Positions 1,054 through 21,697 of a DNA stretch of 64,000 nucleotides are shown in pieces. The first letter of the stretch is position 1, and each line of letters opens with the position of its first letter. A model generated the notes under the pieces. It did no database searches. It had not been told where the DNA came from and was given only the letters and a program-made list of their open reading frames with translations. Position numbers and translations under genes: made by a program. The DNA is from Phormidium tenue FACHB-1052 (GTDB lineage: Bacteria > Cyanobacteriota > Cyanobacteriia > Phormidesmidales > Phormidesmidaceae), in contig NZ_JACJQN010000002.1 in NCBI RefSeq assembly GCF_014696675.1, positions 124,001 to 188,000 on the forward strand. The letters are read 5' to 3'.

Positions 1054-1327
1054 CGGCTTGACCCGCTGGGGTTTGAAAGATCCATTCCATGGGGTGGACA
1101 GCGCCCGTGACCAACTCCAGCCGGTTGACCGTGAGCTGCTGGTTCACCAGCGCATAGACCAACACCCCATCCCAAAACATCTCCAGGCGATCGGGTTCGC
1201 GCTCCGCCGTCCATTCCACATCGAGCTGCATTTCGTTGCCCTCCACATGCACGGCCTTTTGCCCATCGCACAAAATCACGATGGACTGGGGGCGGTAGTC
1301 GGCGGGTAAGGGGGCCAGGGTCATCAT
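1025..1327 (-). CDS. Small ICE protein, paralogue of the 132-residue protein at 9653-10051
   Basis: A 100-residue protein of unknown function, overlapping the helicase stop by 4 bp and the primase start by 29 bp, so almost certainly translationally coupled. It aligns over most of its length with the 132-residue protein at 9653-10051: shared ADYxP near the start, then I-x-VL-x-D, a central DG, and a C-terminal V(x)NR(L/I) segment. The two therefore look like a duplicated family within one operon, on either side of the methyltransferase/helicase genes. No signal peptide or membrane segment is seen, so it is probably cytoplasmic. No function can be assigned. Confidence 0.75.
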   Translation of the reverse strand: MMTLAPLPADYRPQSIVILCDGQKAVHVEGNEMQLDVEWTAEREPDRLEMFWDGVLVYALVNQQLTVNRLELVTGAVHPMEWIFQTPAGQADEPSPLRHV

Positions 1328-4300
1328 CGTTCAAGTCCTGCTGAGGTCGGGGTGGGAACACGGTCTGATTCTAGGCGCTGCACAAATCGCTGAAACCGCT
1401 GGCAGTCTTCAGCCGTCACCACCGTGCGCTGAATTTTTCCCTGGGCCATTTCCAGAATGGTCTGGGGCTGAGGCGTCACCCGGCGGACGGTCAGCCGGTC
1501 AGCGGTCTGTTTCAGTTCATAGACTTTGCCGCGAAACTGGGTATGGGGGCCTCGGGTCTGCCCGATCGCCGACAAGATTTTTTGAGAGGCTTGAGCCACA
1601 TATTCTCCCCGCTGCTGCAACGCCTGATATTGGGCTAGATCTTGTGCCATCGCCTGCTGTAGGTTTGGCGCGAGGCCCAAGCTGTTGCCGTTGGCTTGTT
1701 TGGCTGAGAGGCCTAACTGCTTAATCTGTTCCAGGTGCAGCGGGTCGTGGCCCAAATCGCGGGCAGCGCGGTACCAGTCGCGCAAGGTGTCTAATGCAGT
1801 ACGCGGCAACGGTTCTAGCGACTTTGGCGCTGCATCATTTGCCTGTTGCTCCTGGTCAGCTACCTCTGGAACAGTGGGGCTAGACAAATGGTGGATAGGC
1901 GGATCTACGGTCGCCTTTGACAATGGCGCGGTTGGTTTTGGCTCTTCTGCCAAGCTAGTCCAGGCTGGATCGGCAGTCTGGCGTTCCCTATGTCCATTTT
2001 GTTGTGCCCCATTGAACTGGTCGAGGTCAAATAGATTTTGTATCTGAAATTCAGGCTCCTCAACCGCTGGTGCTGAAGCCTGGGGTTGGGGAATGGGTTC
2101 AACAGGATTCTGGGCCGGTGCTTCTAGGGGTGTCTCGGGGGGCTGATGGGGATGTACCGAGATCGTCCCCTCCCCCTCCGCAATCACCACCTCCCCCTGC
2201 TGGGTCAGCCTATCCAAATACTTGTGCAAACTCCCCACCGGAAACCCCGCCACCGGCACCCGCCCCAGTTCCTTCACCCCAGACTCCATGCTGGTGCCAA
2301 TCATCTCCAGATGCTCAATCAAGGGCCGAGCGCCTTCAAAAAACGCCTCATAGAACCGTTGATCCGGCGACTGCACCAGTGCGATCGCATCGGGATACTG
2401 CTCTTTTACCGCCAAATACAGCCGCATATCACTGGGCATCTGCGATCGCTCATCCTCAGGTTCTTGCTTCACTTCAGGTACCGCCTGGGCCTGGATTTGA
2501 GCCTGAGCCGCCTCTGCAAACCCCTGCTGCACAATATTCTTGGAGAAGATTTGAGCAAAAGCGCGATCGGGCAATCGCGACTCCCCACCCTGCAGACTCT
2601 GCACCGCTGTCTCCTTAAACTCGATGTGCCCCTCGGCCCGCACCCGAAACACCATCTCCGAGTCGATGAACATATCGCCGTTCTGGGTCAGGTAGTGGGT
2701 CAGATATAGCTCATCCCCCTGCCGCTCCACCACCAGCGGAATAAAAGGCTCATTCTCAATCCGCAGGTGAAACTCCTGGGATGTCATTACGTCCTGCTCA
2801 ATCCCCGCATTCCTCAAAAACCGTAGAATCCGTTTCTCCAGTTGCCCCATCGGGGGCTGATTGGGTACGGCTGGGGACACTGGATTTTCTGCTGTCTCAA
2901 CCGCAGGTTTTTCCATGGCTGGTTCTGGGCGTGGCTGACTTACAGCAGCAGACACAACCGGCTGAGAAACAACTGGAGGCTTAACGGCTTCCACCTCCAC
3001 CTTCTCCAAGGTCGGCAACGACACCCCCATCAACTGCCGCGCCACCTCCTTAAACTCAAACGCTGCCAGGGTGTAGTTTCGCTGGTGCATTACCACTCCC
3101 AACACTCGCTCTAGCCGCTCTGGCGGAATGACGACTTCCATGCGATCGGCCACGGAGTAAAAATCTGACCCCGCCGCCGCAATTAGTTCCTCATCCAAGT
3201 AGTACCGCCCGCCAGACTCCTTTGATTTGGGCGCTTGTAGAATAAACCCATTCCCCGCCTGCTGCGGCTTCAGCAGCAACAGCTCATCGAGGGTCTTCAC
3301 TGTCCCCTGCCGGTTCGTCAGATCTGTGAGGAACCTAAACACCTGCTGCGGCTCCTTTAAGGCCACCGGCTCCTTAGTTAGCTCCGACTCAATATCAAAC
3401 CCCTTGGGCATGATCAGCCCCTGGCAGACCTCACCCCGGTAGTCCGTATAGTTCACCAACTTGCCGTTGGAATACTTCTCAAAGGCCTTGATCAGGTTCC
3501 CAGTGAAGATCTGTCGGTTAACTCGCCCAGCCTCCTGTTGCTTGTCGAACAGGGAATAGACGCTATTGCCAAACCAGTCGTCGGTTTGAACCGTGGCATC
3601 GATCGCCCCAGATCTACCCGTGTTGAACTTCGACAAGGGCACCGTAATTTGCCGCGCTGAATCGGCCACCAGAATCCTTAGCTTCCAGCGGTTCGGTGCT
3701 GCCGGACTCCCGGATCGCTTCTTGGCATCCGCCCCAGCCACTACGCCATAGAGAATCGTCTTACTGGCCGGAGTCACCAACCGCAGCGGTGTGCCGGGCA
3801 CGAACTGTTCCAGCACGCCAGAGACATGTAGGAACTGCTGCTCAATGCGGTCGCTCAGTTTTTCAATGGCTTTACTGTCCTGCTTTTGGGCCACTGCCGC
3901 CTGCCGATACTGGTTCGTCTGCGTTTCCAACTCGGTAATTGTCGCCGCCACCTGCTGCATCGCCTGCGCGGCTACAGCATCCGAGTCATGGGTCTCCACC
4001 GATGCCACTTCCGCCAACCCCACCGACTCCCTCACCACATTGATCGCCTGAAGCTGGGTCAGCGGTTTGCTCTCACTCTTGGCCTCCACCAGCTCCAGGT
4101 ACACTGGCCCCGTGAACTCGCTAGCGGTCTCGCTGTCATCCGCCATTACCTCCATCCGCGCCAGGGGCCTGGCCTCCAAATCCAGCTGATCCGCTTCCAG
4201 AATGTTCTCCCCCATCGCCCGCGCCTGATCCACCAGGTCGCGGTACTCCGATTCGATCAGGCTGTAGACGGCTTCTTGTTCTGCAATGGGTAGCAAGGGA

Positions 4301-7300
4301 ATCCGCCCGGTCATCTTTTTAATCAGGGCAATATCCGAGGCACCACTATCCCCCTGGGCAGACGGGAAGTCTAGCTTGGCATTCAGTTCGGGGTCATCGG
4401 CCAGCAACTCCGTCACCACCTGCTCGCCGTAGGGATTCATAAAATCCACCACGGTGTTGAGCGAGATATCGGTCTCCCGTGCCGCTGTCGTGTTGGCATT
4501 GAGATTGGCCATCTTGCGACAGAGGATTGCTCCCGGTCGTTTTTCCGCTGGAAGGTCGCCCATCAACAGCGTGTAGTTGGGCAGCGCTACCTGCCCAGTA
4601 CGATGCACCCGTCCCAGCATCTGCATGAACACGTTGATGTCCCGCTCCGCCTGGGCCACAATCATGTGGCGAGGCCGCTGGTCGGCAAACTTCTCCGACG
4701 CATGGAGTGAAATCCCGGTCGAGCCCGAGCAGTTCAGCAGAATGACATCGGCATCTCCGGCGTTGAACTTGGCCACGGCATCGATCTTGCCCTTAGCGGT
4801 GGTCTCCTCCCCCAACCGCACTTTGTAGGCCATGGATCCACCGACCCCGTATTCAATGCCCGCCTTGCGCCCGGTGACTTCGGTAACCCGGTAGCCAGAT
4901 CGCTCTAACTGCTGCTCGATGTAGTCAATCGGGCTAATGGGAATGCCACTGAAGTCGGACTCGCGAATACAGTCCAGCGCTTCTTCATAGACCAAAACTG
5001 CCTCGGCTCCGAGTTGATCATCGCTGAGGCGCAGCCGGGTGGAGTGGCCCTGGTAGTCTGTCACCATCACGTCTCTGGATCGCTCCAGATACCGTTCCAG
5101 CAGATCCCCAAAGGACAAGTTCATCCCATCCCCAGGACTCAAATTTTGGGACTCCGCATAGGCCTCAATGAAGCTGCCCATGGTGTTGGCCACTGTGATC
5201 ACGGGCTTTTCACCTCGGTTCAGGGCCGCAATGGCTTCTTCCACTGTCGCATCCGCCTTTTGGGCCAACAGACTCTGCTCAATGCAGTTGTGCATCAACG
5301 AGGTGAAGTTGGTACTCCTGGCTCCCAGATCGCCAATCGCTCCATCCTGCCCCAGGGCCTTCGCTTCTGCCTTGGCCTGATCACTAATCGCTTTCACCGC
5401 CTTCTGCTTAGCCCGGTCAAAGTCCTTAATGGCTCGCATTGCCGCCGAGAAGTCGTCCGCTACCTCCCGATCCACTGGCACCGTCTTGGCCTGAAAGGAA
5501 ATGCCCTCATAGGAGCGCTCGCGGCGCAGCATCTGCCCGGAGGCGACAAACTTGCTGGCCACAATTTGCTGAAGCGGTACCCCACCCCGCGTCAAGATAT
5601 TCTCCAACGCCGTCATGCTGCTCACGCCCAGCCGCAGGTCAGTGCGCCGAGCATAGAGATCCATCACATCGGCCCGTTTGGCGTAGGTCGCCGACGAGTA
5701 AAACACTCCCGAAGACAGGTCGATCAACTCCCGCACAAAATCCGCCCGATCCGGTGGCCCCGCTTCTTTCCACCCACCCTTGCTGCCCCCGGCCTGGTGG
5801 GCCTCATCCAGGATCAAGATGGCGTTGGGAGCCATTTTGCGCAGAAAGTTTCGCCGTAGCGGTTCCTTCTTCCCTACGGTCTGAAGCTGGCTGTAGGTCG
5901 TAAATACAGCGCTGTAGCGACCCAGATTGCCCTGCTGAATCATCGCCTGCATTTCCGCCTGCTGCTTCGCCGCCCCAGCGGTCTTCAATGCCGCGCCATT
6001 GGCCAGCGGAATCTCGGTACCGCTATCGGTGATGAAGGGCGAAAACCGCCGCATCCCGATATCCCCCACATCCCGCATCATGTCGGCATAGAGGGGTTTG
6101 TCCTTAGTGATGAATAGGGCGATCTTCCCCTGCTGCTGGGCATAGCGCATGATGCTGGCACAGATGCGGCCCTTGCCAATGCCGGTCTGGTCGCCCGTGA
6201 TGAACCCGGCTCCCCGCTCGATATTGCTGATCGCTAGAGCTGAAGCATCGACCTGCTCAGCGCTAAAGTACTGGTGCAGTTCAGAAACAGAACCATAGCC
6301 CAGGCGAGTGGACAGGTACTCATCAATGTCGCCGTGCTGCTGCTCGAATCGCTCCAGCGCCTGCTGCGCGGCACTGGCCATGTTGAAGGGAATCAGGGTC
6401 TGGGTTGAAAAGCCCTTGCTTTTGGGCACATAGGCCACTTGCCGGGGCTGGACATCGTAAGTGTCTGCCGACGAAGTCACAGCCTCGTCGGTTGAAAGGG
6501 AAGTATTCATGGTGAGTTCTGGGTGAAGGGCTACAGACTCAGTTCGTTCAGCCACGCCTCTAGCGTGGTCTCGTCGTGCAGACTCAGCCAGTCCAGATAG
6601 TCCGGATAGCTGGGGGTTACGGGCGTTACCGGAAAGCTCCCCCCGTAGTGGCGCAATCGTTCCTGAAACCGCCAGTTGCTCCGAATCAAGGTCTCTGCCC
6701 ACTGCTGCCGCCAATACTCCAGGTCGTCGTCCGGCTCCAGTATCGGCGTGTGCTGGACCGGGTCCAATTCGCTGAGGATGGTGGCCAGCCCTTGTTGCGT
6801 CTCGATTTGGGAGGTTTCCGAGACGGAGTCCTGAATCATCCTGTCCAGCCGAGTTTGCATCAGCTGCAAGTAAGTTGCTTCGCTCAGCTGATCTAATGTT
6901 GGTGGCACCTTGACGATGAATAGCGTTCCCATGCCCTCCAGCGTCCAGAGGTTGGGAAAGCTGGGGTACTGGCTGGTCATGAACGGGCATGTCCAGGGGG
7001 ATACGGGCGTGGTGGATAGGTTCATGGGGAATCAACTCCTTAAGTTCAGCAAACGACTTGTAGATAACCGGGACATCAGCGGCAGGTAACGGGCGTTCCG
7101 ACCGGCCTCGACCCTTAATCACAATCAAATCAATCGGAAAACCCGCGCCCTGTTTGCGGTACAGGTCACCCCAAATGGAAATATGTTGGGTAACGGCGTA
7201 CTGCTGATACAGGGCATAAAAGAAGCCTCGACTTTCCAGGGTGTTGTAGCGCTCAGACCGTAGCTCTTCATCCACTCCCAGCTTGCCGCCCAGGATCAGC

Positions 7301-7992
7301 ACGGCGCGACCATCGTCCTTCATCGCTCCTAGAGCTTGAAACGAGATCGCCTGATCAATCTGGGTTGTCCCCCGCAGATTGCACGGCAACCTGAACCGTT
7401 TACGCTGCCCCTGCGCGTCTCGCACGGCACCAAAGGGTGGGTTGGCGATCACTACATCGTGCAGGCGTTCTGGCTGATACTCTGCTGCATCCCACTCCGT
7501 GACGGTGTAGCCTTGAGCCCGTAGGTCAGCGGCGCGATCTGGATTGAGTTCATTGACGGTCACCTGGGTAGGGTCAGTTCCCACCAGCAATGCGCCGTGC
7601 CCAGCAGAGGGCTCGTAAACGGTGGTGTCTGGGGTAATGCCCGCCAGGGTAGAGGCCAGATACGCGATGGGGATCGGCGTACTGTAAGCCTGCTGCAACA
7701 CGCTGGTAGAGGAACGAACATTCAGGGCGGGCTGGCGATCGCACAACTCGACCAGCCGATCATAGGTGTCGTGAGTTGTCGCCGAGGTTTGAAGGATCCC
7801 CTGGGCCGCTCGCACCACCGCCCCCTCGACCGCTTCATCCACCTGCTTCGCCAGCGCCGTACCGGGGTTGACGGGCGTGCCCAACACTAACGCCGCCTGT
7901 TGCCGGGCGGCAGTAATCGTCGTAAACCCTTCACCCCCCAGGAAATGGGAAGTGAAGTGGTTCACCAGCTGCTGTTGAGCGTCTTCTACCAT
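1324..7992 (-). CDS. DarB-like DNA methyltransferase / strawberry-notch helicase; probably a composite reading frame
   Basis: One uninterrupted 2222-codon frame. Residues ~70-300 are an N6-adenine methyltransferase: SAM motif EPSAGHGALLV (127-137) and catalytic NPPF (184-187). Residues ~500-1200 are a strawberry-notch-type SF2 helicase: GDQTGIGKGR near 597, DEAH near 725, and motif VI-like GRVHRTGQ near 1124. The rest is a Pro/Gln-rich linker and a small C-terminal module also found in the neighbouring 556-residue protein. Phage P1 DarB has the same methylase+helicase layout at similar length and protects incoming DNA from restriction; a like role during conjugation is inference. Residues ~340-490 look out of frame: codon third positions there are GC-poor and the composition is Arg/Gly/Ala-rich, while the overlapping frame 7025-6531 is GC-rich at third positions. 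The helicase could start separately at ATG 6510 (1728 residues), 20 bp after that frame's stop. Confidence 0.8.
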   Translation of the reverse strand: MVEDAQQQLVNHFTSHFLGGEGFTTITAARQQAALVLGTPVNPGTALAKQVDEAVEGAVVRAAQGILQTSATTHDTYDRLVELCDRQPALNVRSSTSVLQQAYSTPIPIAYLASTLAGITPDTTVYEPSAGHGALLVGTDPTQVTVNELNPDRAADLRAQGYTVTEWDAAEYQPERLHDVVIANPPFGAVRDAQGQRKRFRLPCNLRGTTQIDQAISFQALGAMKDDGRAVLILGGKLGVDEELRSERYNTLESRGFFYALYQQYAVTQHISIWGDLYRKQGAGFPIDLIVIKGRGRSERPLPAADVPVIYKSFAELKELIPHEPIHHARIPLDMPVHDQPVPQLSQPLDAGGHGNAIHRQGATNIRSAERSNLLAADANSAGQDDSGLRLGNLPNRDATRAGHHPQRIGPGPAHADTGAGRRPGVLAAAVGRDLDSEQLAVSGTIAPLRGELSGNARNPQLSGLSGLAESARRDHARGVAERTESVALHPELTMNTSLSTDEAVTSSADTYDVQPRQVAYVPKSKGFSTQTLIPFNMASAAQQALERFEQQHGDIDEYLSTRLGYGSVSELHQYFSAEQVDASALAISNIERGAGFITGDQTGIGKGRICASIMRYAQQQGKIALFITKDKPLYADMMRDVGDIGMRRFSPFITDSGTEIPLANGAALKTAGAAKQQAEMQAMIQQGNLGRYSAVFTTYSQLQTVGKKEPLRRNFLRKMAPNAILILDEAHQAGGSKGGWKEAGPPDRADFVRELIDLSSGVFYSSATYAKRADVMDLYARRTDLRLGVSSMTALENILTRGGVPLQQIVASKFVASGQMLRRERSYEGISFQAKTVPVDREVADDFSAAMRAIKDFDRAKQKAVKAISDQAKAEAKALGQDGAIGDLGARSTNFTSLMHNCIEQSLLAQKADATVEEAIAALNRGEKPVITVANTMGSFIEAYAESQNLSPGDGMNLSFGDLLERYLERSRDVMVTDYQGHSTRLRLSDDQLGAEAVLVYEEALDCIRESDFSGIPISPIDYIEQQLERSGYRVTEVTGRKAGIEYGVGGSMAYKVRLGEETTAKGKIDAVAKFNAGDADVILLNCSGSTGISLHASEKFADQRPRHMIVAQAERDINVFMQMLGRVHRTGQVALPNYTLLMGDLPAEKRPGAILCRKMANLNANTTAARETDISLNTVVDFMNPYGEQVVTELLADDPELNAKLDFPSAQGDSGASDIALIKKMTGRIPLLPIAEQEAVYSLIESEYRDLVDQARAMGENILEADQLDLEARPLARMEVMADDSETASEFTGPVYLELVEAKSESKPLTQLQAINVVRESVGLAEVASVETHDSDAVAAQAMQQVAATITELETQTNQYRQAAVAQKQDSKAIEKLSDRIEQQFLHVSGVLEQFVPGTPLRLVTPASKTILYGVVAGADAKKRSGSPAAPNRWKLRILVADSARQITVPLSKFNTGRSGAIDATVQTDDWFGNSVYSLFDKQQEAGRVNRQIFTGNLIKAFEKYSNGKLVNYTDYRGEVCQGLIMPKGFDIESELTKEPVALKEPQQVFRFLTDLTNRQGTVKTLDELLLLKPQQAGNGFILQAPKSKESGGRYYLDEELIAAAGSDFYSVADRMEVVIPPERLERVLGVVMHQRNYTLAAFEFKEVARQLMGVSLPTLEKVEVEAVKPPVVSQPVVSAAVSQPRPEPAMEKPAVETAENPVSPAVPNQPPMGQLEKRILRFLRNAGIEQDVMTSQEFHLRIENEPFIPLVVERQGDELYLTHYLTQNGDMFIDSEMVFRVRAEGHIEFKETAVQSLQGGESRLPDRAFAQIFSKNIVQQGFAEAAQAQIQAQAVPEVKQEPEDERSQMPSDMRLYLAVKEQYPDAIALVQSPDQRFYEAFFEGARPLIEHLEMIGTSMESGVKELGRVPVAGFPVGSLHKYLDRLTQQGEVVIAEGEGTISVHPHQPPETPLEAPAQNPVEPIPQPQASAPAVEEPEFQIQNLFDLDQFNGAQQNGHRERQTADPAWTSLAEEPKPTAPLSKATVDPPIHHLSSPTVPEVADQEQQANDAAPKSLEPLPRTALDTLRDWYRAARDLGHDPLHLEQIKQLGLSAKQANGNSLGLAPNLQQAMAQDLAQYQALQQRGEYVAQASQKILSAIGQTRGPHTQFRGKVYELKQTADRLTVRRVTPQPQTILEMAQGKIQRTVVTAEDCQRFQRFVQRLESDRVPTPTSAGLER
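6531..7025 (-). CDS. Embedded reading frame: small protein, or frameshifted C-terminus of the methyltransferase
   Basis: A 164-codon frame, +1 relative to the long frame covering the same DNA. By hand count from 6901-6960 and 6541-6600, its codon third positions are about 75-78% G/C, against about 33-35% in the long frame, so this is the frame under coding selection. The product is acidic and Trp/Leu-rich (LEYWRQQWAE, YPDYLDWLSL). It ends in TAG at 6531, 20 bp before ATG 6510 of the helicase. Two readings: a separate gene starting at 7025 or at an internal Met, or the true end of the methyltransferase reached through a +1 shift near the five-G run at 6996-7000 (assembly indel, mutation or programmed frameshift). 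The second best explains why the methyltransferase frame lacks its own stop. Confidence 0.6.
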   Translation of the reverse strand: MNLSTTPVSPWTCPFMTSQYPSFPNLWTLEGMGTLFIVKVPPTLDQLSEATYLQLMQTRLDRMIQDSVSETSQIETQQGLATILSELDPVQHTPILEPDDDLEYWRQQWAETLIRSNWRFQERLRHYGGSFPVTPVTPSYPDYLDWLSLHDETTLEAWLNELSL

Positions 7993-7994
7993 TC

Positions 7995-9665
7995 CTACTC
8001 ACCCATGGCCATGCCCACGGCGCGGCTGCGTTGTCGGCTGTTCAGAGGTGTCACTGTCGCCGGTTGGTGCCGCTGCAGATCCTGGCTAAGTTCCCGGTCG
8101 ATGAACCGGAAATAGGCCACATCCTTAGACGTGAGATCAGACTTGATTTTGCCGTTGTCAATGCTGAGAATCTGACCCCGCTCACCCGCCTGAATTTTCA
8201 GGCTGTTGGGGGTCTCCTCAATCCGGTACTGACTGCCCCCTTGGAAGACTCGCTTGCCCTGCACGTTGGGACGGCTGCCGGTGACATCAAGCAGTTTGCG
8301 AGCGGTTTTCGCCAGGGTCAGGGCCGTGAGATCTCGGGTGATGCCCATGTCCCCGGCTGGTGCAAGGTTGCCCAACTGTCGTACCCGCATGGGGGGCTCT
8401 GGGGACAGACCATCAATCCCCTGAATCTGAATTTGCTGGCGGGCTTTCATGAAGTCAGCCTCTTGGGAGGCCACCATGTCGTTTTTGAGGATGTCCAACC
8501 CCCAGCGAGTTTTTCGAGCCGTCATTAATTCGATGCCTTCGCGGTCTGAGACGGTGACCATGCGGCCCTTAGAGCTGACCACGTAGTTCTCCGCCACGTA
8601 GAAGCCTCGACCAGGGCTATAGGCAGTACCGTACTTCTGAAGCAAATCCACCGCCGTAGAGGCGACCTGCCGACTGCGGATATTCGCCGCCAGGGCCACC
8701 ACCCGTTCAGTCAACTGCTGGGACGAGCGCCGCATCACCCGTGTGGTCTGCTGCATCCATTTCTGGGTAGCTTTTTCAACCACCTGCTGATTCTGACGTT
8801 CCATCACGTCGAGGATGGAGACTACCCTGGGTGAAGCCATGGCCAGGGGCTGAGCTGCGACTCGGGTGGGCGCAGGCTGACTTGCAGATGGTTGCTGCTC
8901 AGGTTCCGTGGCTGCTTTGACGGAAGCCAAAGGGACATCAGGCACAGGCTTATCTGCCAGTCGGGACTCTTCACCTGCCCCAGGGGCCAAGGTCTCCTTT
9001 GTCTCAGGTTCTGTGGCGGCTTCTGCTGAGGACACAGGCGGCACAGTCTCACCCGCCAGCTTGGGATCGCCAGCGGATAATGCCTTCGGGGAAGACACCT
9101 CTGTCGGACTGGATTGGGGCATCTCTGGCGGCGGCTCCTCCTGAGAAACCTCCGGGAAAGCCGTTCCCGCCTGATTAACCAGATCCGGCTTTAGCCGGTT
9201 GGTCTCAACCGCCCCCTTGCTCATCCGATAAACCAGCTCATCTCCAGCCTTGATGTTGATTGTCCCTTTGGCCCCGGTAGTCGCCTCAGCGCCCGCCTGC
9301 GGAGTCGCATCTACTGCGGCCTGGAGCAGCTTCAGCGTATTGGCATTGAGCTTGTTGACGGGGTCTTTATCGACATAGCCTTCGCGGTAGACAATCTCGC
9401 GACCCATCTTGATCTCGATAGGCTCAGCAACAGCTTGGGGCAAATCTACAGCATCCCCAGGCTGAGCATCCTGTGCTTCAGTTTCCGAGTCTTGCTCCTT
9501 TTGTCGAGCCGCCTGGAGCCGCTCGCGCAACATCTGAATAAAGGCCTGTACAGCCTCGGCGGTTGATTGAGCCGTGGCCGCTGCCATTTCGCTAGAGGCC
9601 AGGGTGGTGTGAGCATAATCCTGCTCAATTTGTTTCGCTTCTCCGGGATTCACTACGGCTTGCAT
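7995..9665 (-). CDS. 556-residue ICE protein with Pro/Glu-rich middle and helicase-shared C-terminal module
   Basis: Not recognised. An N-terminal Ala/Gln-rich helix (1-75) is followed by two similar short segments, IEIKMGREIVYR and INIKAGDELVYR, then a long low-complexity Pro/Glu/Ser/Ala linker (~170-290), then a helical and beta-containing C-terminal half. The last ~90 residues (ARKLLDVTG ... GKI ... T-x-x-D ... RF) resemble the C-terminus of the DarB-like helicase encoded immediately downstream (KILSAIG ... GKIQRTV ... RF). This suggests a common docking or DNA-handling module and a joint role. It overlaps the upstream gene by 13 bp and ends 2 bp before the methyltransferase start. P1 Dar systems use several internal head proteins, but no homology to them is visible. 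Confidence 0.75.
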   Translation of the reverse strand: MQAVVNPGEAKQIEQDYAHTTLASSEMAAATAQSTAEAVQAFIQMLRERLQAARQKEQDSETEAQDAQPGDAVDLPQAVAEPIEIKMGREIVYREGYVDKDPVNKLNANTLKLLQAAVDATPQAGAEATTGAKGTINIKAGDELVYRMSKGAVETNRLKPDLVNQAGTAFPEVSQEEPPPEMPQSSPTEVSSPKALSAGDPKLAGETVPPVSSAEAATEPETKETLAPGAGEESRLADKPVPDVPLASVKAATEPEQQPSASQPAPTRVAAQPLAMASPRVVSILDVMERQNQQVVEKATQKWMQQTTRVMRRSSQQLTERVVALAANIRSRQVASTAVDLLQKYGTAYSPGRGFYVAENYVVSSKGRMVTVSDREGIELMTARKTRWGLDILKNDMVASQEADFMKARQQIQIQGIDGLSPEPPMRVRQLGNLAPAGDMGITRDLTALTLAKTARKLLDVTGSRPNVQGKRVFQGGSQYRIEETPNSLKIQAGERGQILSIDNGKIKSDLTSKDVAYFRFIDRELSQDLQRHQPATVTPLNSRQRSRAVGMAMGE

Positions 9666-10051
9666 GGTTCCTCCTTTAAGGGGTCTAGGCTTTCTAAATC
9701 CATCAGGGGCATGATTTTGATCCGGTTAATCACCTCCAGCCCTTGGACCGAAAAGTAGGCAGTGTCGCCATCGATCAACCACTCCACCAGGGTTGGCATG
9801 TAGTCGATCTCCACATCGGCGCACTGGGCCTGAATCCGGCCATCCCGCCAGTGAAATATCGTCACATCGTCGTACAGCACCTCAATTTCGCGGGGCACGT
9901 AGTCAGCGCCCAAGGGCGGCTGATCTAACACCAATGCCAGATCAGCGGCGATATTGGGGTAGGCCAGTAGGGCGGTGACCGTATCCACAGGCAGCTTCGC
10001 TCGCAAGGTCTGCGCCAGCATGAGATCAGGGGATTGAATCGTTGCCGTCAT
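9653..10051 (-). CDS. Small ICE protein, paralogue of the 100-residue protein at 1025-1327
   Basis: 132 residues, no signal peptide or membrane segment, function unknown. From about residue 48 on (PPLGADYVPREIEVLYDD) it is alignable with the 100-residue protein at 1025-1327; the N-terminal ~45 residues are extra. It follows the VirD4 gene by 10 bp and overlaps the next gene by 13 bp, fitting translation from one mRNA. Presence of two copies beside the methylase/helicase unit suggests a role in that unit or in DNA transfer rather than in the membrane channel; this is inference. Confidence 0.75.
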   Translation of the reverse strand: MTATIQSPDLMLAQTLRAKLPVDTVTALLAYPNIAADLALVLDQPPLGADYVPREIEVLYDDVTIFHWRDGRIQAQCADVEIDYMPTLVEWLIDGDTAYFSVQGLEVINRIKIMPLMDLESLDPLKEEPCKP

Positions 10052-14788: not shown

Positions 14789-16269
14789 AGCGCCACCGTT
14801 TGATTCACGTACACTTCGACCTCAGTGCCGGTTGGCAAATACCAGACGACAGGGCGATTCAAGATTTCGTCTAGGGCCGCCTGATTCCGCGCTTCCATCT
14901 GCCCCGAGAGCTGCTCAAATGCGCCTTCAAGAATTCCGGCCAGAAGGTTGGGCTCTCCGGTGTCCTGGGTGATCGCGCTGCTTCCAACAGAGGTAATGAC
15001 CGAGGAAGTCTTGGGCCGATTGACCAACCCCGCTGCCCGAGATAACCCAGCCATAGCCGCCATCGTGGCATCCATACGAGCGATGTCCATGCCTGGGTCG
15101 TCATACTTCTGGGCTATCAAGGGAGTGCCCTCCACCCCTCGCAGTTGAATGGCTCCAGCGGACAGCGGGATCTCTTGCCCGGCCTGAATGAATGAGACTA
15201 CCGTCAGTTGCACCAGGCCACTGTCCGCCACCGAGGTCACCTGTGCCACCAACGACGTGTCTGCTGGTATTCCGATCTCTCCAGCGGCGGTCAGTAGGGG
15301 GGCGGTCAGCTGCACTACGAACTGAGGGCTGTCTGTCTCCGCCGCCCAGACCAACGGCGTTTTCAGTGCGGCTGGGGCCTGGGTGCCAGTCAGCAGCAGG
15401 GGCGCTGTCGGGGGCAATGCCACTGGCTGGCCTTGGAGAATGGCCGCTTCTTCGACATGGTTAATGTCACGGGATGGGGGTGGTGTGCTGACTTGAGCCA
15501 CTGACGCGGGGACTGGCGTTGAAGCCGCCGTGACTAGCGGTGCAGAGGTTTCCTGCGGTAAGGGACTGCCCTGTCCGTAGCTCCCCAAATGGGACAGCGC
15601 TAGCCATCGTTCCGTTGGATCGACGGCGGATTGAGCCGCAGATTGGGACACCACAGGGCGAGCTGAAACAGCGGGGGAGACAGGAACTGGTCGAGGCGGT
15701 AGCGGTGCCGGGGTGGGTCGCGCCGCCACGGGTTGGGGCGGTCGTGACGGGGGTGGAGGAGCCGGAGAAAATTCAGGGGTTTCTCTGGCCGTTGGCGCTT
15801 CCGGTTGAGCCGCAGGCTCTTCATTGGCCAGGGCCTCCAGTTCGGCTTGCTGATGCCCCATTGCTAAATCGGTCAGCAGCTGTCCCCGGTCATCGGTGGC
15901 ACTCAGCTCCTCTCCCTCGACCATAGGTTCTGGAAAATCGGCTTGCACCTCCTCAGCCGGTGGAGAGTCATTTTTCATCACCCCGCTGGTGAAGACCGCT
16001 AAAACCCCTATCACTAGACCCGTTCCAGCGGCGACAACACCCAGCTTGGTGAAGGGGTTAGCCGCCAGGGATAGCTTGGGCTTGCGAGTGGTTAAGGCCT
16101 GCCCGTCAATATCTTCAGCATCCAGTAGGGGTTCTGGCTCCAGAGTGGTAGCGGGTGCAACTGGATAATCAGCAGCCTGTTCTCCGGTAGCGGCAGGTTC
16201 TGGTAGGTGTAGTCCCACCAAGTCAGCCATCTCTTGGTCATCCCACAGGTTGTTAGGTGTCGTCATCAC
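14785..16269 (-). CDS. VirB10/TraB/TrbI-like channel scaffold protein
   Basis: 494 residues. A cytoplasmic N-terminus (~1-85) leads into one membrane segment (~93-115, GVVAAGTGLVIGVLAVF), then a Pro-rich periplasmic linker (~165-215) and a beta-rich C-terminal domain ending PTGTEVEVYVNQTV, as in VirB10/TraB. This protein family spans inner membrane to outer membrane and gates the channel. An Ala/Gly/Met-rich helical stretch (IARMDATMAAMAGLSRAAG) fits the antenna region that crosses the outer membrane. Overlaps both neighbours by 4 bp. Confidence 0.85.
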   Translation of the reverse strand: MMTTPNNLWDDQEMADLVGLHLPEPAATGEQAADYPVAPATTLEPEPLLDAEDIDGQALTTRKPKLSLAANPFTKLGVVAAGTGLVIGVLAVFTSGVMKNDSPPAEEVQADFPEPMVEGEELSATDDRGQLLTDLAMGHQQAELEALANEEPAAQPEAPTARETPEFSPAPPPPSRPPQPVAARPTPAPLPPRPVPVSPAVSARPVVSQSAAQSAVDPTERWLALSHLGSYGQGSPLPQETSAPLVTAASTPVPASVAQVSTPPPSRDINHVEEAAILQGQPVALPPTAPLLLTGTQAPAALKTPLVWAAETDSPQFVVQLTAPLLTAAGEIGIPADTSLVAQVTSVADSGLVQLTVVSFIQAGQEIPLSAGAIQLRGVEGTPLIAQKYDDPGMDIARMDATMAAMAGLSRAAGLVNRPKTSSVITSVGSSAITQDTGEPNLLAGILEGAFEQLSGQMEARNQAALDEILNRPVVWYLPTGTEVEVYVNQTVAL

Positions 16270-17000
16270 AAGTCCTCCCGTTCAAGTTCGCGGATGGCAT
16301 AGATTTGCAGGCCGGTTTGGCGAATGCTGTAGATGGCCTGCTCCAACGGGGTATCACCATCGGGCACAGCTGGCGCGGTGACGGCCTCGACAAACACCTC
16401 CCGGTTAAAGGGAATGGCTTGGCCTAGGGCATTGGCGTCGTTAAAGACATAGAGATGGGCCACCACCGTCACCTTCCAGCGGCCCTCCCCAACCACCTCG
16501 GGGCTGCCAACGTGGTTGATCACCATCACCACCTGACTCGTGCCAGTGAAGACTCCCGGTGGCGTCAGTTCGGCTACCCGCTTCAAAAAGTCCTGGCGGA
16601 AGTCTTCGGAAAAGGCAAAGCTGGCCTGCCAACTGGCGGTGGCGATATTGCGCCGACCCCGTTCCACTTCAATCGGGAGGCCAGGGTCGGCCCTGGGCTG
16701 ACTGGCCTCCTCTGCCGTGGTCGCAGGCAGACTGCCGCTCCAGTTGAACATCAGCACCAGAGTGTCATTGACGAAGCGCCGGACTGTTTCTGGGGTGCGC
16801 TCCCGAGAGCCCATAGTGCCGACTCGAATCGCCTGTCCGTCCTGCATTTGCACCAGGGTGGGGGCATCTTGGCGGCTGAGACGACTCAAGGCACCAGCCT
16901 GAAGAAACAAGACCACCAGCATTACCAGCTGCAACCCCACGCTGCCCAAGACGAACAGGGGCAGGTAGTTTGTATTGCGTTTCTCAATCAACTGCACCAT
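16266..17000 (-). CDS. VirB8/TraE-like inner-membrane assembly protein
   Basis: 244 residues: short cytoplasmic N-terminus, a single membrane helix (~13-36, LPLFVLGSVGLQLVMLVVLF) and a ~200-residue periplasmic domain containing FVNDTLVLMFNWSG and a later RWKVTVVAHLYVFND strand. This topology and the position between VirB6-like and VirB10-like genes fit VirB8/TraE, the nucleation factor of type IV secretion channels. Overlaps the VirB10-like gene start by 4 bp. No signature motif exists for the family, so the call is topology plus context. Confidence 0.72.
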   Translation of the reverse strand: MVQLIEKRNTNYLPLFVLGSVGLQLVMLVVLFLQAGALSRLSRQDAPTLVQMQDGQAIRVGTMGSRERTPETVRRFVNDTLVLMFNWSGSLPATTAEEASQPRADPGLPIEVERGRRNIATASWQASFAFSEDFRQDFLKRVAELTPPGVFTGTSQVVMVINHVGSPEVVGEGRWKVTVVAHLYVFNDANALGQAIPFNREVFVEAVTAPAVPDGDTPLEQAIYSIRQTGLQIYAIRELEREDL

Positions 17001-17023
17001 GGAATATGTCCTTGTGAGTGAGG

Positions 17024-18124
17024 TCAGCGACGCACGCGATAGGCCCGACGTCGGCCCGAGTAGCCAGGGGCACGGGCGATGCCACCCATAGCACCTGTCC
17101 CGGCGATCACCCCAGCGGTACTGGTCAGGGCTCCAAAAACCGTCATGCCACCGCCCGAGGCCAGGGCCAGAGAGAGAATGGGAGCCAGCAGGCCGAGAAA
17201 GAATGGGGCAATCAGGGGATGGGAATCCCCGGCATTCAGCACCGCTAGGGAGACCAGACCCGAGAGGATGTTGAAGCTGAGTTTGGCGATCGCCAAGGAA
17301 AAGAACCCCGTCAGCCAGGCGAATAGCGGTTTAGCCCCCACCGGCAGTAATGAGCCGCCCACAGCAAGCGGCCCCAGGGTGGCGGTCAGCAACAACGAGG
17401 CCTCAATCAGCCACTGAAAGGCAATGTGCAGCGCCATCAACAGGCCTCGGGTCACGGTCTGAAAGCCCGAACCCATTAGCGCCCCGCCAAACCTCAGACC
17501 TGAATCGAGGGGATTATCCCCAGCCTGAGCCGCCTCCAACGCACGGGATAGGGCGTTAGGATTACCGGTTCTAGCGCGATAGTCTTCGATAAACTCGCGG
17601 GCTTCAATTGCTGCTAGCTCAATGCAATTCGCCCGCTCTTCGGGGTTTTGAAGTTCATAGCACTGGTTGCGACGCTGGATAATGGTCTGCTCCACCGACC
17701 CTTCCAAGACCGCCGCCTGATAGGCCTCTTGCAGCCGGATATCCGCAGCAGTGTAGGACAGGACATCTTGGTTGACCTGGTTGATGTAGTTGCGGATGTC
17801 CAGGGTAATGGCTGCCAGGCGATCGCCATTGTTAGACAGCAGCACAATCACCAGCAGCGGCCAGATGAAATCGGCGTAGGCGCGGCTGCTTTCCCCTTCC
17901 ACCATCTGCCGCGTCCACTGGGTCATGAACAGGAGTAGGGTCGCGACAGCGAACAAGACCCCCACCCGAGCCAGGGCAAAGTAAAGGCCACCCTGAAGCA
18001 CGCTCTCCCAGAGCTGGTTCCAGCTTTCAGCCACGGCTTCAGACGCGACAGCGCCGCCCTCAATGATGTCGGCAGTGTCGCGGGGTAACTGGGCAATGGG
18101 TGAAATGGGCCAATCCAGCAGCAT
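17024..18124 (-). CDS. VirB6/TrbL-like polytopic membrane protein
   Basis: 366 residues with about five to six membrane segments: ~50-70 (LYFALARVGVLFAVATLLLF), ~88-103, ~225-250, ~262-295 and ~305-345, and a soluble stretch between ~110 and ~210 with two cysteines. The C-terminus is Arg-rich. VirB6-type proteins form the inner-membrane part of the translocation channel. Gene order (after VirB5-like, before VirB8-like) supports this. The GTG/ATG choice was not an issue: ATG at 18124 follows a 40-bp gap holding a TTGACGTCA motif. Confidence 0.75.
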   Translation of the reverse strand: MLLDWPISPIAQLPRDTADIIEGGAVASEAVAESWNQLWESVLQGGLYFALARVGVLFAVATLLLFMTQWTRQMVEGESSRAYADFIWPLLVIVLLSNNGDRLAAITLDIRNYINQVNQDVLSYTAADIRLQEAYQAAVLEGSVEQTIIQRRNQCYELQNPEERANCIELAAIEAREFIEDYRARTGNPNALSRALEAAQAGDNPLDSGLRFGGALMGSGFQTVTRGLLMALHIAFQWLIEASLLLTATLGPLAVGGSLLPVGAKPLFAWLTGFFSLAIAKLSFNILSGLVSLAVLNAGDSHPLIAPFFLGLLAPILSLALASGGGMTVFGALTSTAGVIAGTGAMGGIARAPGYSGRRRAYRVRR

Positions 18125-18164
18125 GGGAATTCACATCCAAGTTGACGTCATGACTAACAGACGT

Positions 18165-18887
18165 CTAGAACAAGCGGGCCTGGGCGCTAATTTGCAGCGT
18201 GTCGAGGGCATTGCCCAGCTCTTGCAGGCGACGGGCACGGGCCTCTTGATCCAGGTTTTGAGACATGTTAGCCAGGTTGAGGTTGGTCAACTGAGCGTCT
18301 TGTCGAGATTGCAGCAGTTCTGACTGCACCGCCCCCAGAATTTCCGACTGACGCGCATTTTGCTGGGCCATTTGCTTGATTGCCGCCTGGGTGGACACAG
18401 CGGTCTGGGCCGAGTCGGCGTGCTGCTGCACCTGGCCGATGGTGTCTTCAATCCAGGTGATTTTGTCGCGGGTGGCGGCCTGCCCGGTCTGACCCAGCAC
18501 CGCATCAACCTGGGCGCGGGTGAGCTGCCGGTCAACTTCATTGGCGGTTTCAAGGCCTGCATAGATACTGTCGGACTGGGCTAGATCGCCCTCCAGGATG
18601 GTCGCCAGTTCCGTCGAGATTTCAGAACGTACCCGATTGGGGTCAACCAGGCCCAGATCCCCCAGGGCGTTTTGGATTACGCCCTCTAGATCACCGGGCA
18701 ATGGAGTGAGCAGGCCAGAGAGGGTTTGCTCGATGTAGGTTTTGCTGGTCTCAAAGGCCTGGCGGAAAATGCTGAAGATATCGGTGAAGGTGGTATCCAC
18801 CTGCGAGGCAGCGGCAGGTTTCATAGGTGCCACCAACAGGGTGGTGGCCAAGATGGGAATGAGGGCAACGCGAAGACGCGGGTTCAT
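18165..18887 (-). CDS. VirB5/TrbJ-like periplasmic helical protein
   Basis: 240 residues: signal peptide (~1-28, ending PAAAS), then almost entirely helical Gln/Ala-rich sequence with heptad character (~120-230). VirB5 and TrbJ proteins, the minor pilus-tip or periplasmic coiled-coil components, have this make-up and sit next to VirB4 and VirB6, as here. The start overlaps the VirB4-like stop by 4 bp. Assignment is by layout and composition; no diagnostic motif. Confidence 0.65.
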   Translation of the reverse strand: MNPRLRVALIPILATTLLVAPMKPAAASQVDTTFTDIFSIFRQAFETSKTYIEQTLSGLLTPLPGDLEGVIQNALGDLGLVDPNRVRSEISTELATILEGDLAQSDSIYAGLETANEVDRQLTRAQVDAVLGQTGQAATRDKITWIEDTIGQVQQHADSAQTAVSTQAAIKQMAQQNARQSEILGAVQSELLQSRQDAQLTNLNLANMSQNLDQEARARRLQELGNALDTLQISAQARLF

Positions 18888-21697
18888 GAATGACCTCCAG
18901 TGGGTAGGGAGTTGAAGGAAGACAAAGGAACTTCGGGATGGGGATTGCGCTCGGCAAACCAGCGCTCGGTGATCACCGAGAGGGGTTCCCCGGACTGAAT
19001 CGAGAGCACCAGCAGTCGGGCGAATTCCGCCAGACCTGTGAAGGTATCGGGGGCATGGCGCAGCACCAAGTCTCGGGTCGTCTGCTCGTCGGGGTTATTG
19101 GCCACGGCGGCGAGCTGGGCGAAGGCGGGATAGTAGCGGCAGTAGGTGTAGAGACCGTTGTTATCAAGCAGCCACTGGCTGTAAATGCCCTCCCGTTTGG
19201 GAAAGAAGCTTTCGCTGGCGTTACGGCTGATGACGGCCTTGGGATATTTGAGAATGCGCTCAAAGCTATCTACCGCCATGGGCTGAATGCGGCCAATCAG
19301 CCGGGTGGTGAGGTTCTGGAAAATCTTGGCGCTAGCGGGCGATTTATGGACGGTATCGGGATCTTGAGCCGAGATAATCACCCGAATCCCTGCCTTGGCT
19401 CCGTTGGCGCAGAGTCGGCCAATCAGGGCTCCAATTTCGTCAAACTCAAACAGGATGGGGGCTTCATCAATAAAGAAGATGGAGGCCGGAGCTTCCAGGG
19501 CACGCCTAAGAGCAGCGGCATAGGCGGAAAGCGCCAGCACGGCAGCATCTTCTTCGTTAGATAGATTGCGCAGGGCAAACACCAGTAGCTGGGCATCGGT
19601 CGGAAAGCTGGAGGGGGCAGAAATCGCCCGCCCCACCCGGCTGGAGAGCCAGAACCTGAGCCGTAGATCGATCATGTCTAGAGCCTTCGCGATATTGCCG
19701 CCCACCTGGTTCAGATCCAGTTGTTCAGGCGTGCAGAAGTCGAGAAAGTCAGCCAGGGTGGGCATTTGTGCCCAGGCCGCTGAACCTAAGCGCCCCTCCA
19801 TCGCCTCCAGGTAGCGTCGCTGAATGGGGGCGTCGGCAAAGAAGGCATTGAGCGCCAGCACCAAAATCGAGCGAATGGTCTGAGTCATCACCGAGCTATT
19901 GGCCCCTGAGCCCACAATCATGGTCAACAGGGCTGACTCTAGAAATGACTGAAAGTCGTCGAGGCGTTCTTTGCGCTCGTCACCGGGCAGATGGCGCAAG
20001 TCGGGCAGCTCGAACAGGTTGTTGGATTCGCGGGAGATGTCGAAGTAGGCCCCGCCCACCAGCTGGGTATAGTCGGTGAAGGTGGAGGAGCCATCGGGCT
20101 TGGGAAAATCAAGCGCCACCACCGGGAAGCGGTGGGCCAGCGCCTGGGTGAGGATGCCGGAGACCAGGACAGACTTCCCCGCTCGGGTGGTGGCAAACAG
20201 GCCCAGGTTCTGGTGCTGGTTGAACAAATCCAGGTGAATGGGTTGGCCCCCTTCCTCAGCAATCAGCTCAAAGCCACTCCTATCGCAGGGCTGGGTTATC
20301 ACCAATGGCATCAGCCCTGGTGCTTCGCCGGTCAGGTAAAGCTGTCGCCGTCCGAAGGGGGTCGCCATCAGCGCTTCCCACACAATCGGCAGCGTCTGAA
20401 GCCATACTTTCCAAGCGTAGTCCTGCTCGCGTTCTACCCAGGCCGGGCGGCGAAAGCAGCTCTGGATATAGCGGCAGGCTTCATCCAGCTGCTCTAGATC
20501 CGGTCGATGCACCAGAAATACAACGGCAGTGTGGATCGGTAGGGCACCCTCGAAGAGTTCTTCCTGGGCCTCAATCGAGCGCTTCATCTTTAGCTCAGCG
20601 GCCACATCTACCGAGTGACTGTCTTCAGCTAACGTAGCCGTCAGGTTTGACTGCTTCAGCATCCGCTGCACGGTGGTTTTTACCAGGGTTTCGTTGGCCC
20701 GAGTCAGCTGGCAGAAGATTTCGGTGTCGGCCACGGTCTCGCGGGAGAGGATCTCCCACAGGTAGCGCAACTGGGCTGATTCGCTGGCCCAGCCTCCTGG
20801 TTTTTCGAGGAACGTCAGCGGGGCCGCATACTGGCCTTTGACCTTGACCCAGGTTTTCCCAGCGGTGGGCACCCCGGCCCGAGTCAGCAGCGTGGTGCTG
20901 TGAATGTCGGAGTTGACCTGCTCGTGTAGGCCATCAGAATCCAGGATGATCAGCTGGGGAATGTCGATGGGGTCACTGGCGTTAAAGCGGTTCCAGAGCA
21001 GGCTCCACAGATCCCCTTCACCCAAGGGTTTGACTGAGAGACCCATCTTGGTTGAAAGCACCTGCTCCCAGAGCAGAAAGCCATCGGTAAAGGCCTTGGT
21101 GATCACCGTTTGTAATCGCTGATTTTTGGCCTGGCGCAGCTCACCCGTGAACGACTTCCACAGGTTTTCGCCCCTGCTGATCACCTTCTCGATGATGTCC
21201 TGGGCTCCTTCAGAGCCCGTTTGGACGGTGTAGGTGACGTACAGCCGCAGAAACTTGGGTTTGCGCAGGCCCTGCTGGGTGAGTTGTTGGACTCGAGCGC
21301 GTTCAGCGGTGAGCAGGAACTTGAGAGCCTGGTTAGGGGCAATTTGGGTGAGTTGGGCTAGAGCATGTTGGCGATCGCAGTCCGCCGAAAATGACCCCAG
21401 GTGAATCGTTAGCCGCTCACCGTTGGGTAAATCCTTCAGCCCTGATTCCAGCTGGTCAAAGACGATCTCTACCTGCTCATCGGTCAGGGTGTTGTGAATG
21501 CCCCGGCAGTCGAAGCCAAACACAAAGCAGAGGTGTTCACGGTTCTTGCCCTTCGTGAGGACGTAGGCTCCTACTTGTCGCCCCCGCAGCTCAATGCGTA
21601 GCATAGCGGCGAGGTTTAGGGCATCTTCAAAGGGCGTCAACGTGCTAACGAACTGGCTGCCGAGCTTGAGTCGATGTTTGCCGATGGTCTGTTTCAT
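18884..21697 (-). CDS. VirB4/TraC-family conjugation ATPase
   Basis: 937 residues. Walker A region FATTRAGKSVL at ~500 and Walker B SIFFIDEAP at ~739 within the typical TraC/VirB4 C-terminal ATPase domain; an N-terminal ~480-residue domain is also typical. VirB4 is the only ubiquitous ATPase of conjugative type IV systems and powers pilus and channel assembly at the inner membrane. The P-loop has Ala-Thr-Thr-Arg-Ala-Gly-Lys-Ser, so the first Gly of the usual GxxxxGKS is Ala. The start lies inside the VirB3-like gene (53-bp overlap), a common VirB3-VirB4 coupling that becomes a fusion in some systems. Confidence 0.9.
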   Translation of the reverse strand: MKQTIGKHRLKLGSQFVSTLTPFEDALNLAAMLRIELRGRQVGAYVLTKGKNREHLCFVFGFDCRGIHNTLTDEQVEIVFDQLESGLKDLPNGERLTIHLGSFSADCDRQHALAQLTQIAPNQALKFLLTAERARVQQLTQQGLRKPKFLRLYVTYTVQTGSEGAQDIIEKVISRGENLWKSFTGELRQAKNQRLQTVITKAFTDGFLLWEQVLSTKMGLSVKPLGEGDLWSLLWNRFNASDPIDIPQLIILDSDGLHEQVNSDIHSTTLLTRAGVPTAGKTWVKVKGQYAAPLTFLEKPGGWASESAQLRYLWEILSRETVADTEIFCQLTRANETLVKTTVQRMLKQSNLTATLAEDSHSVDVAAELKMKRSIEAQEELFEGALPIHTAVVFLVHRPDLEQLDEACRYIQSCFRRPAWVEREQDYAWKVWLQTLPIVWEALMATPFGRRQLYLTGEAPGLMPLVITQPCDRSGFELIAEEGGQPIHLDLFNQHQNLGLFATTRAGKSVLVSGILTQALAHRFPVVALDFPKPDGSSTFTDYTQLVGGAYFDISRESNNLFELPDLRHLPGDERKERLDDFQSFLESALLTMIVGSGANSSVMTQTIRSILVLALNAFFADAPIQRRYLEAMEGRLGSAAWAQMPTLADFLDFCTPEQLDLNQVGGNIAKALDMIDLRLRFWLSSRVGRAISAPSSFPTDAQLLVFALRNLSNEEDAAVLALSAYAAALRRALEAPASIFFIDEAPILFEFDEIGALIGRLCANGAKAGIRVIISAQDPDTVHKSPASAKIFQNLTTRLIGRIQPMAVDSFERILKYPKAVISRNASESFFPKREGIYSQWLLDNNGLYTYCRYYPAFAQLAAVANNPDEQTTRDLVLRHAPDTFTGLAEFARLLVLSIQSGEPLSVITERWFAERNPHPEVPLSSFNSLPTGGHS

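Follow-up and report, generated by a model that had tools for sequence, protein, structure and literature searches.

A putative +1-frame gene nested within the interdomain linker of a methyltransferase-helicase gene

The long methyltransferase-helicase ORF and the +1 frame within it

The window (the whole stretch of DNA that was analyzed, 64,000 nucleotides [nt] from Phormidium tenue FACHB-1052) carries a long open reading frame (ORF) on its minus strand, whose product consists, in this order, of an N6-adenine methyltransferase, a linker, a strawberry-notch-type SF2 helicase, DUF6908, and MutS_I, an arrangement of the polyvalent-protein type. A second, shorter ORF lies inside it on the same strand in the +1 frame. 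The features of the locus are as follows.

1324..7992, minus strand: long methyltransferase-helicase ORF, 2222 codons (2222 amino acids), open in all intact orthologues
7018..7710, minus strand: methyltransferase domain with an NPPF motif, residues ~95-325, folded (AlphaFold2 pLDDT mostly >90), with weak N6_Mtase and PHROG matches
7036..7041, minus strand: AAGGAG, the nested gene's Shine-Dalgarno sequence, 10 nt ahead of the ATG and within Lys-Glu codons of the long frame
6531..7025, minus strand: nested gene in the +1 frame, 164 amino acids (P0002), mostly helical, no family match (from conservation, selection, and AlphaFold2)
6454..7023, minus strand: long-frame linker, residues 324-513, disordered according to AlphaFold2 and nearly coextensive with the nested gene
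6508..6510, minus strand: in-frame ATG, 20 nt past the stop of the nested gene, a possible coupled second helicase start, in cyanobacterial members only
4207..6231, minus strand: helicase domains AAA_34 (strawberry notch P-loop; PF13872) and Helicase_C_4 (PF13871), from the domain search
2182..2835, minus strand: DUF6908 and MutS_I domains

The GC content of the long frame by codon position is about 0.6/0.46/0.72 outside the overlap and changes to 0.72-0.82/0.54-0.66/0.34-0.46 at ~6970-6520, where the normal pattern is recovered if the DNA is read in the +1 frame. A preliminary description of this DNA had pointed to such a switch in third-position composition, and the flip of the GC pattern bears it out.

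The nested ORF begins with an ATG at 7025, and a +1-frame TGA is located three codons upstream. Among 76 distinct copies, the start codon was ATG in 74 and was preceded by a Shine-Dalgarno-like motif in 71, counts that are biased upward because the starts were partly picked by these very signals. Less exposed to this objection is the codon choice of the long frame: where homologues encode Lys-Glu at the Shine-Dalgarno site, the codons are AAG GAG in 42 of 46, whereas helicase codon use would predict 31% (nominal p 3e-17; since related sequences are not independent, this and other p-values are too small). The ATG, the Shine-Dalgarno sequence, and the choice of AAG GAG codons together give the nested ORF a translation start of its own, as is required of an overlapping gene.

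In almost every record examined, automatic annotation overlooks the nested gene. The one exception is Gloeobacter (plasmid L023:5088-5534 and L036:1932-2381), for which PGAP calls a nested coding sequence (WP_230844304.1) and a separate helicase and drops the methyltransferase part, though the long frame is open throughout.

Within the window, genes for a type IV coupling protein (T4CP) and a TrbI-like protein are located upstream of the long gene, which makes the element look conjugative, and orthologues of the long gene are found on plasmids and viral contigs. Its nearest relatives point to a cyanobacterial host of the Nodosilinea/Leptolyngbya kind. The genes at 7995-9665, 9653-10051, and 16266-21697, which adjoin the conjugation genes, are without a convincing Pfam family.

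Conservation of the +1 ORF

A tblastn search with the 164-amino-acid nested protein matched two plasmids, each time within a gene annotated as a helicase. A +1 ORF of ~150-170 codons was found at the same place in 31 orthologues, from Nodosilinea to Picosynechococcus, Chroococcidiopsis, and Gloeobacter, and it is kept in several cyanobacterial orders, in Alphaproteobacteria, and in viral contigs. The pair is present, for example, on plasmid pAQ6 of the culturable Picosynechococcus sp. PCC 7002 (L035). The preliminary description, which had placed a hidden +1 coding frame within the 2222-codon frame, had its coordinates right.

For an unbiased set, we used the loci that were retrieved by helicase similarity alone (66 from genome_contigs and 36 from viral_contigs), so that the retrieval carried no bias toward the linker. 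An intact nested ORF at the same place and in the same phase was present in 54 of the 58 genome loci that had enough upstream DNA; the four remaining loci comprise one without the methyltransferase, two broken copies, and one doubtful case. Nearly all viral contigs (IMG/VR) bear the nested ORF, some of them as a shorter form of 93-99 amino acids. The +1 ORF is conserved far beyond chance.

The script figures depend on the automatic choice of ORFs, and several loci were left out of the counts: L062 (methyltransferase absent upstream), L064 and L104 (broken copies), L109 (doubtful ORF), L125, and L126, as well as L119, L124, and L151, for which a wrong +1 ORF or start was picked automatically while the nested ORF is visible by eye. 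In L064, the second copy in its genome, the frame is broken near the end of the nested ORF (around 4700-4900), and in L104 the disruption lies at the border between methyltransferase and linker. The shorter type occupies the same place and is devoid of the N-terminal W-x-P part (L099, L117, L120-L123, L128, L129, L139, and L144); its kinship to the long type was judged by eye and is weak by profile.

A profile built from cyanobacterial sequences only was run against 9124 six-frame ORFs and matched viral and alphaproteobacterial copies, with E values from 1.5e-11 down to noise; all matches that were traced lie in the +1 frame, a Leptolyngbya boryana gene excepted. Searches of whole genomes gave the same association: seven matches in 386 genomes of the phylum, each nested in such a methyltransferase-helicase gene, and, in 65 genomes of the family, matches that lie at the sites of the long gene wherever they could be placed. 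One alphaproteobacterial and one viral nested protein, used as tblastn queries against plasmids and phages, gave no match.

Selection on the two frames and alternative readings of the locus

Selection on the two frames was estimated from 16 close relatives with our own script modelled on OLGenie (PMC7531306). The dNN/dNS ratio of the nested frame was 0.257 (95% interval, 0.19-0.33), and the dNN/dSN ratio of the long frame across the overlap was 1.13 (0.79-1.66). In helicase control segments, the long frame gave 0.02-0.07 and a mock nested frame about 1.4-1.5. These ratios (0.26 versus 1.13) indicate constraint on the nested protein but none on the long-frame residues, and, together with the switch in composition, they agree with the preliminary description of the long frame as compositionally noncoding across the overlap. 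Codon use is closer to that of the helicase in the nested frame than in the long frame in 65 of 78 copies.

The long frame is nevertheless kept open. Frame 0 acquires a stop wherever a T-ending nested codon is followed by a codon that begins with AA, AG, or GA. In the 31 orthologues, such stop-making T's numbered 0 of 1170, compared to a T share of 14% ahead of other codons and of 19% within the helicase, and in the 76 distinct copies they numbered 0 of 2836, compared to 1172 of 8489 elsewhere. The same 76 copies contain 871 stops in the third frame and none in frame 0. When synonymous nested genes were drawn at random, frame 0 stayed open, per locus, in 0-6% of draws with helicase codon use and in 0-7% of draws with the nested gene's own codon use. 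The simplest reading of a frame 0 that is never stopped is that ribosomes must cross the overlap in this frame too and that the fusion is real. The alternate frame is thus under purifying selection and the reference frame is functional across the overlap; judged from the sequences, both frames are selected, the nested one for its protein sequence and the long one for openness.

Structure prediction separates the two frames in the same way. The AlphaFold2 model of the nested protein (60 homologues) has a mean pLDDT of 87.4 and a pTM of 0.83 and shows two short strands followed mainly by helices. The long-frame model is confident for the methyltransferase and for the beginning of the helicase, and residues 324-513 have a pLDDT of 30-40 and no secondary structure. 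The nested protein is therefore predicted to fold and the long-frame residues encoded by the same DNA to be disordered. Searches with the nested protein against Pfam, PHROGs, NCBIfam, PADLOC, and PDB sequences returned nothing convincing, and Foldseek found no match to the model with an E value below 0.3 in PDB and BFVD. Since the same DNA serves both frames, conservation in the +1 frame might be a mere by-product of conserved long-frame residues. We regard this as hardly credible, given that the constraint falls on the nested frame (0.26) and not on the long one (1.13), that the nested profile reaches viral copies through protein similarity, and that a fold is predicted for the nested protein only.

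The preliminary description had suspected that the apparent fusion is an artefact, with a methyltransferase that really ends in the +1 frame, reached by a frameshift or programmed recoding near a run of five G's, and a separate helicase starting from the ATG at 6510. The switch in composition, the in-frame ATG that most cyanobacterial members have close behind the nested stop, and the PGAP annotation of a nested coding sequence plus a separate helicase in Gloeobacter would all suit this reading, but the comparison of orthologues makes it very unlikely. No intact orthologue has frame 0 interrupted (0 of 2836 stop-making T's), and among the alphaproteobacterial and viral members that were counted, nearly all lack an ATG from which a separate helicase would start. 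The five-G run, which on the coding strand reads C5 (7000-6996), falls within the nested ORF and lacks conservation, with gtatctccctgg and gtttcaccctgg in its place in relatives. Recoding is also unneeded, because the +1 ORF, which is preceded by a +1 stop three codons upstream, has its own Shine-Dalgarno sequence and ATG. Programmed ribosomal frameshifting was accordingly rejected: it would call for a conserved slippery site at the frame change, and the C5 run is not such a site.

An arrangement with three products was also considered, in which, besides the fusion and the nested protein, a free helicase would be made in cyanobacteria by translational coupling from the ATG behind the nested stop. 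The in-frame ATG lies about 8-38 nt past this stop in most cyanobacterial members, so that a coupled free helicase is possible there, and in Gloeobacter the stop and start overlap. However, this ATG mostly has no Shine-Dalgarno sequence (an ATG with one was found in 18 of 76 loci) and is missing in the cyanobacterial loci L076, L083, L084, L088, and L108. Of the alphaproteobacterial and viral members counted, nearly all are likewise without it (the one exception has no Shine-Dalgarno sequence), and in these a coupled free helicase is hardly possible. All in all, we consider a third product unlikely.

The locus is thus very probably a nested gene pair on one strand, in which both the fusion and the gene within it, in the +1 frame, are real. 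One mRNA would be translated in frame 0 into a methyltransferase-linker-helicase fusion and, from an internal Shine-Dalgarno sequence and ATG, in the +1 frame into a separate, mainly helical protein of ~130-170 amino acids encoded wholly within the linker codons. The sequence constraint would rest on the nested protein, and the long frame would need only to stay open, yielding a disordered tether.

Origin, related systems, and possible function

A homologue that does not overlap was found on a Leptolyngbya boryana plasmid (L038). Here, helicase and methyltransferase are joined in the reversed order in one gene of 3500 codons, and the homologue of the nested protein (HMM E 2.7e-10; hhalign 95%, E 3e-8) is a standalone, annotated gene whose end lies 77 nt ahead of the helicase gene; upstream, the helicase frame is interrupted by stops. 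Both this standalone homologue and the codon use of the two frames fit the notion that the nested gene is the older user of the DNA and that the linker was overprinted on it. The nested gene might originally have stood on its own, between or next to the genes of the two enzymes, and these might have become fused when it was read through in the other frame.

In the helicase tree, the nested state is found throughout one clade. The nested gene is absent in the methyltransferase-helicases of Pseudomonas, Cupriavidus, and Vogesella (plasmids), of an Acinetobacter-phage form, and of Persicobacter, which shows that some enzymes of this type do without it; since the tree is unrooted, these states are compatible with gain as well as with loss. 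In Bacteroides phage BS-TP4 (L153), from a group that otherwise lacks the nested gene, a distantly related protein has a 120-amino-acid +1 ORF in its linker; this ORF has no profile match and is perhaps independent.

To our knowledge, few old and well-supported nested genes have so far been described in cellular or plasmid DNA. The pair described here is kept over distant hosts and viral contigs, and its two frames are demonstrably selected in different ways. It may also illustrate a simple route to fusion, whereby a neighbouring gene is read in the wrong frame and the resulting nonsense serves as a flexible linker.

The long protein belongs to the polyvalent methylase-helicase type, a DNA methylase-helicase dyad whose archetype is DarB of phage P1; the passages on this dyad in Iyer et al. 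(2017, PMC5512222) note strawberry-notch versions and propose methylation of transferred DNA. As in the DarB dyad (PMC5512222), an NPP(Y/F) N6-adenine methyltransferase, here with NPPF, is followed in one polypeptide by an SF2, SWI2/SNF2-like helicase, and the gene is carried by phages or conjugative elements (here, conjugation genes in the window and orthologues on plasmids and viral contigs). Unlike the present locus, the dyad as presented in those passages (PMC5512222) comes with no mention of a second-frame gene, and the word "overlapping" does not occur in the text of the paper. A simple listing of the ORFs of P1 DarB gave no such ORF between its domains. We rejected P1 iddB as a parallel: it lies antisense in ddrB, a different and unrelated arrangement. 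P1 Ulx, a small protein whose gene adjoins darB, would be no more than a candidate relative.

Another likeness is offered by the hepatitis B virus polymerase, in which the DNA of a disordered interdomain spacer encodes another protein, preS, in a +1-shifted frame, and in which the spacer is thought to have evolved later (PMC9093120). Both systems have a disordered stretch between enzyme domains that overlaps a +1-frame protein (PMC9093120). They share no sequence relation, however, and here the host gene is a bacterial or phage methyltransferase-helicase, with a nested gene that is confined to the linker over its full length and comes with a ribosome-binding site of its own. The long overlapping genes known from one strand in bacteria and phages likewise consist of a nested ORF with its own start signal and with purifying selection of the kind tested by OLGenie (PMC7531306); unlike those, the present pair is common to plasmids and viral contigs of distant hosts, and a standalone homologue exists. 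A literature search, with most subscription journals outside its reach, found no description of this nested pair.

As for function, the nested protein would be made near the methyltransferase-helicase from their shared mRNA and might act as its dedicated subunit or modulator, in a complex that would modify transferred DNA or escort it against host restriction, a role suggested for polyvalent proteins of the DarB type. In all searches the nested gene goes with the helicase, and even the nonoverlapping copy adjoins it, which favors a dedicated partner over an effector. To a partner of this kind, in a complex that protects transferred DNA, we give about an even chance. The nested protein might instead be an autonomous effector, such as an inhibitor of host defence, that does not bind the methyltransferase-helicase and is nested for coexpression or compactness. 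The conjugative look of the element (T4CP, TrbI-like), the antirestriction polyvalent type of the long protein, the fast evolution of the nested protein, and the existence of a second, shorter type of 93-99 amino acids are consistent with an effector; a free effector would be expected elsewhere too, and the tie to this one helicase, overlapping or not, makes such a role possible but rather unlikely. A dedicated partner of antirestriction enzymes would fill a gap in the account of how plasmids and phages survive on entering new hosts.

In the broadest form of our proposal, the nested genes would constitute an undescribed overlapping-gene family, namely, a new protein family, possibly with a new fold, that is encoded +1 in the linker throughout one clade of plasmid and phage methyltransferase-helicases, is their obligate partner, and by its presence created the linker at the fusion; we rate this as about as likely as not. 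The P. tenue genome contains a second methyltransferase-helicase (L156; G000:C7:88400-98000) that is 36% identical to the first and has a similar nested +1 ORF of its own, which matches the wider profile weakly (E 0.003).
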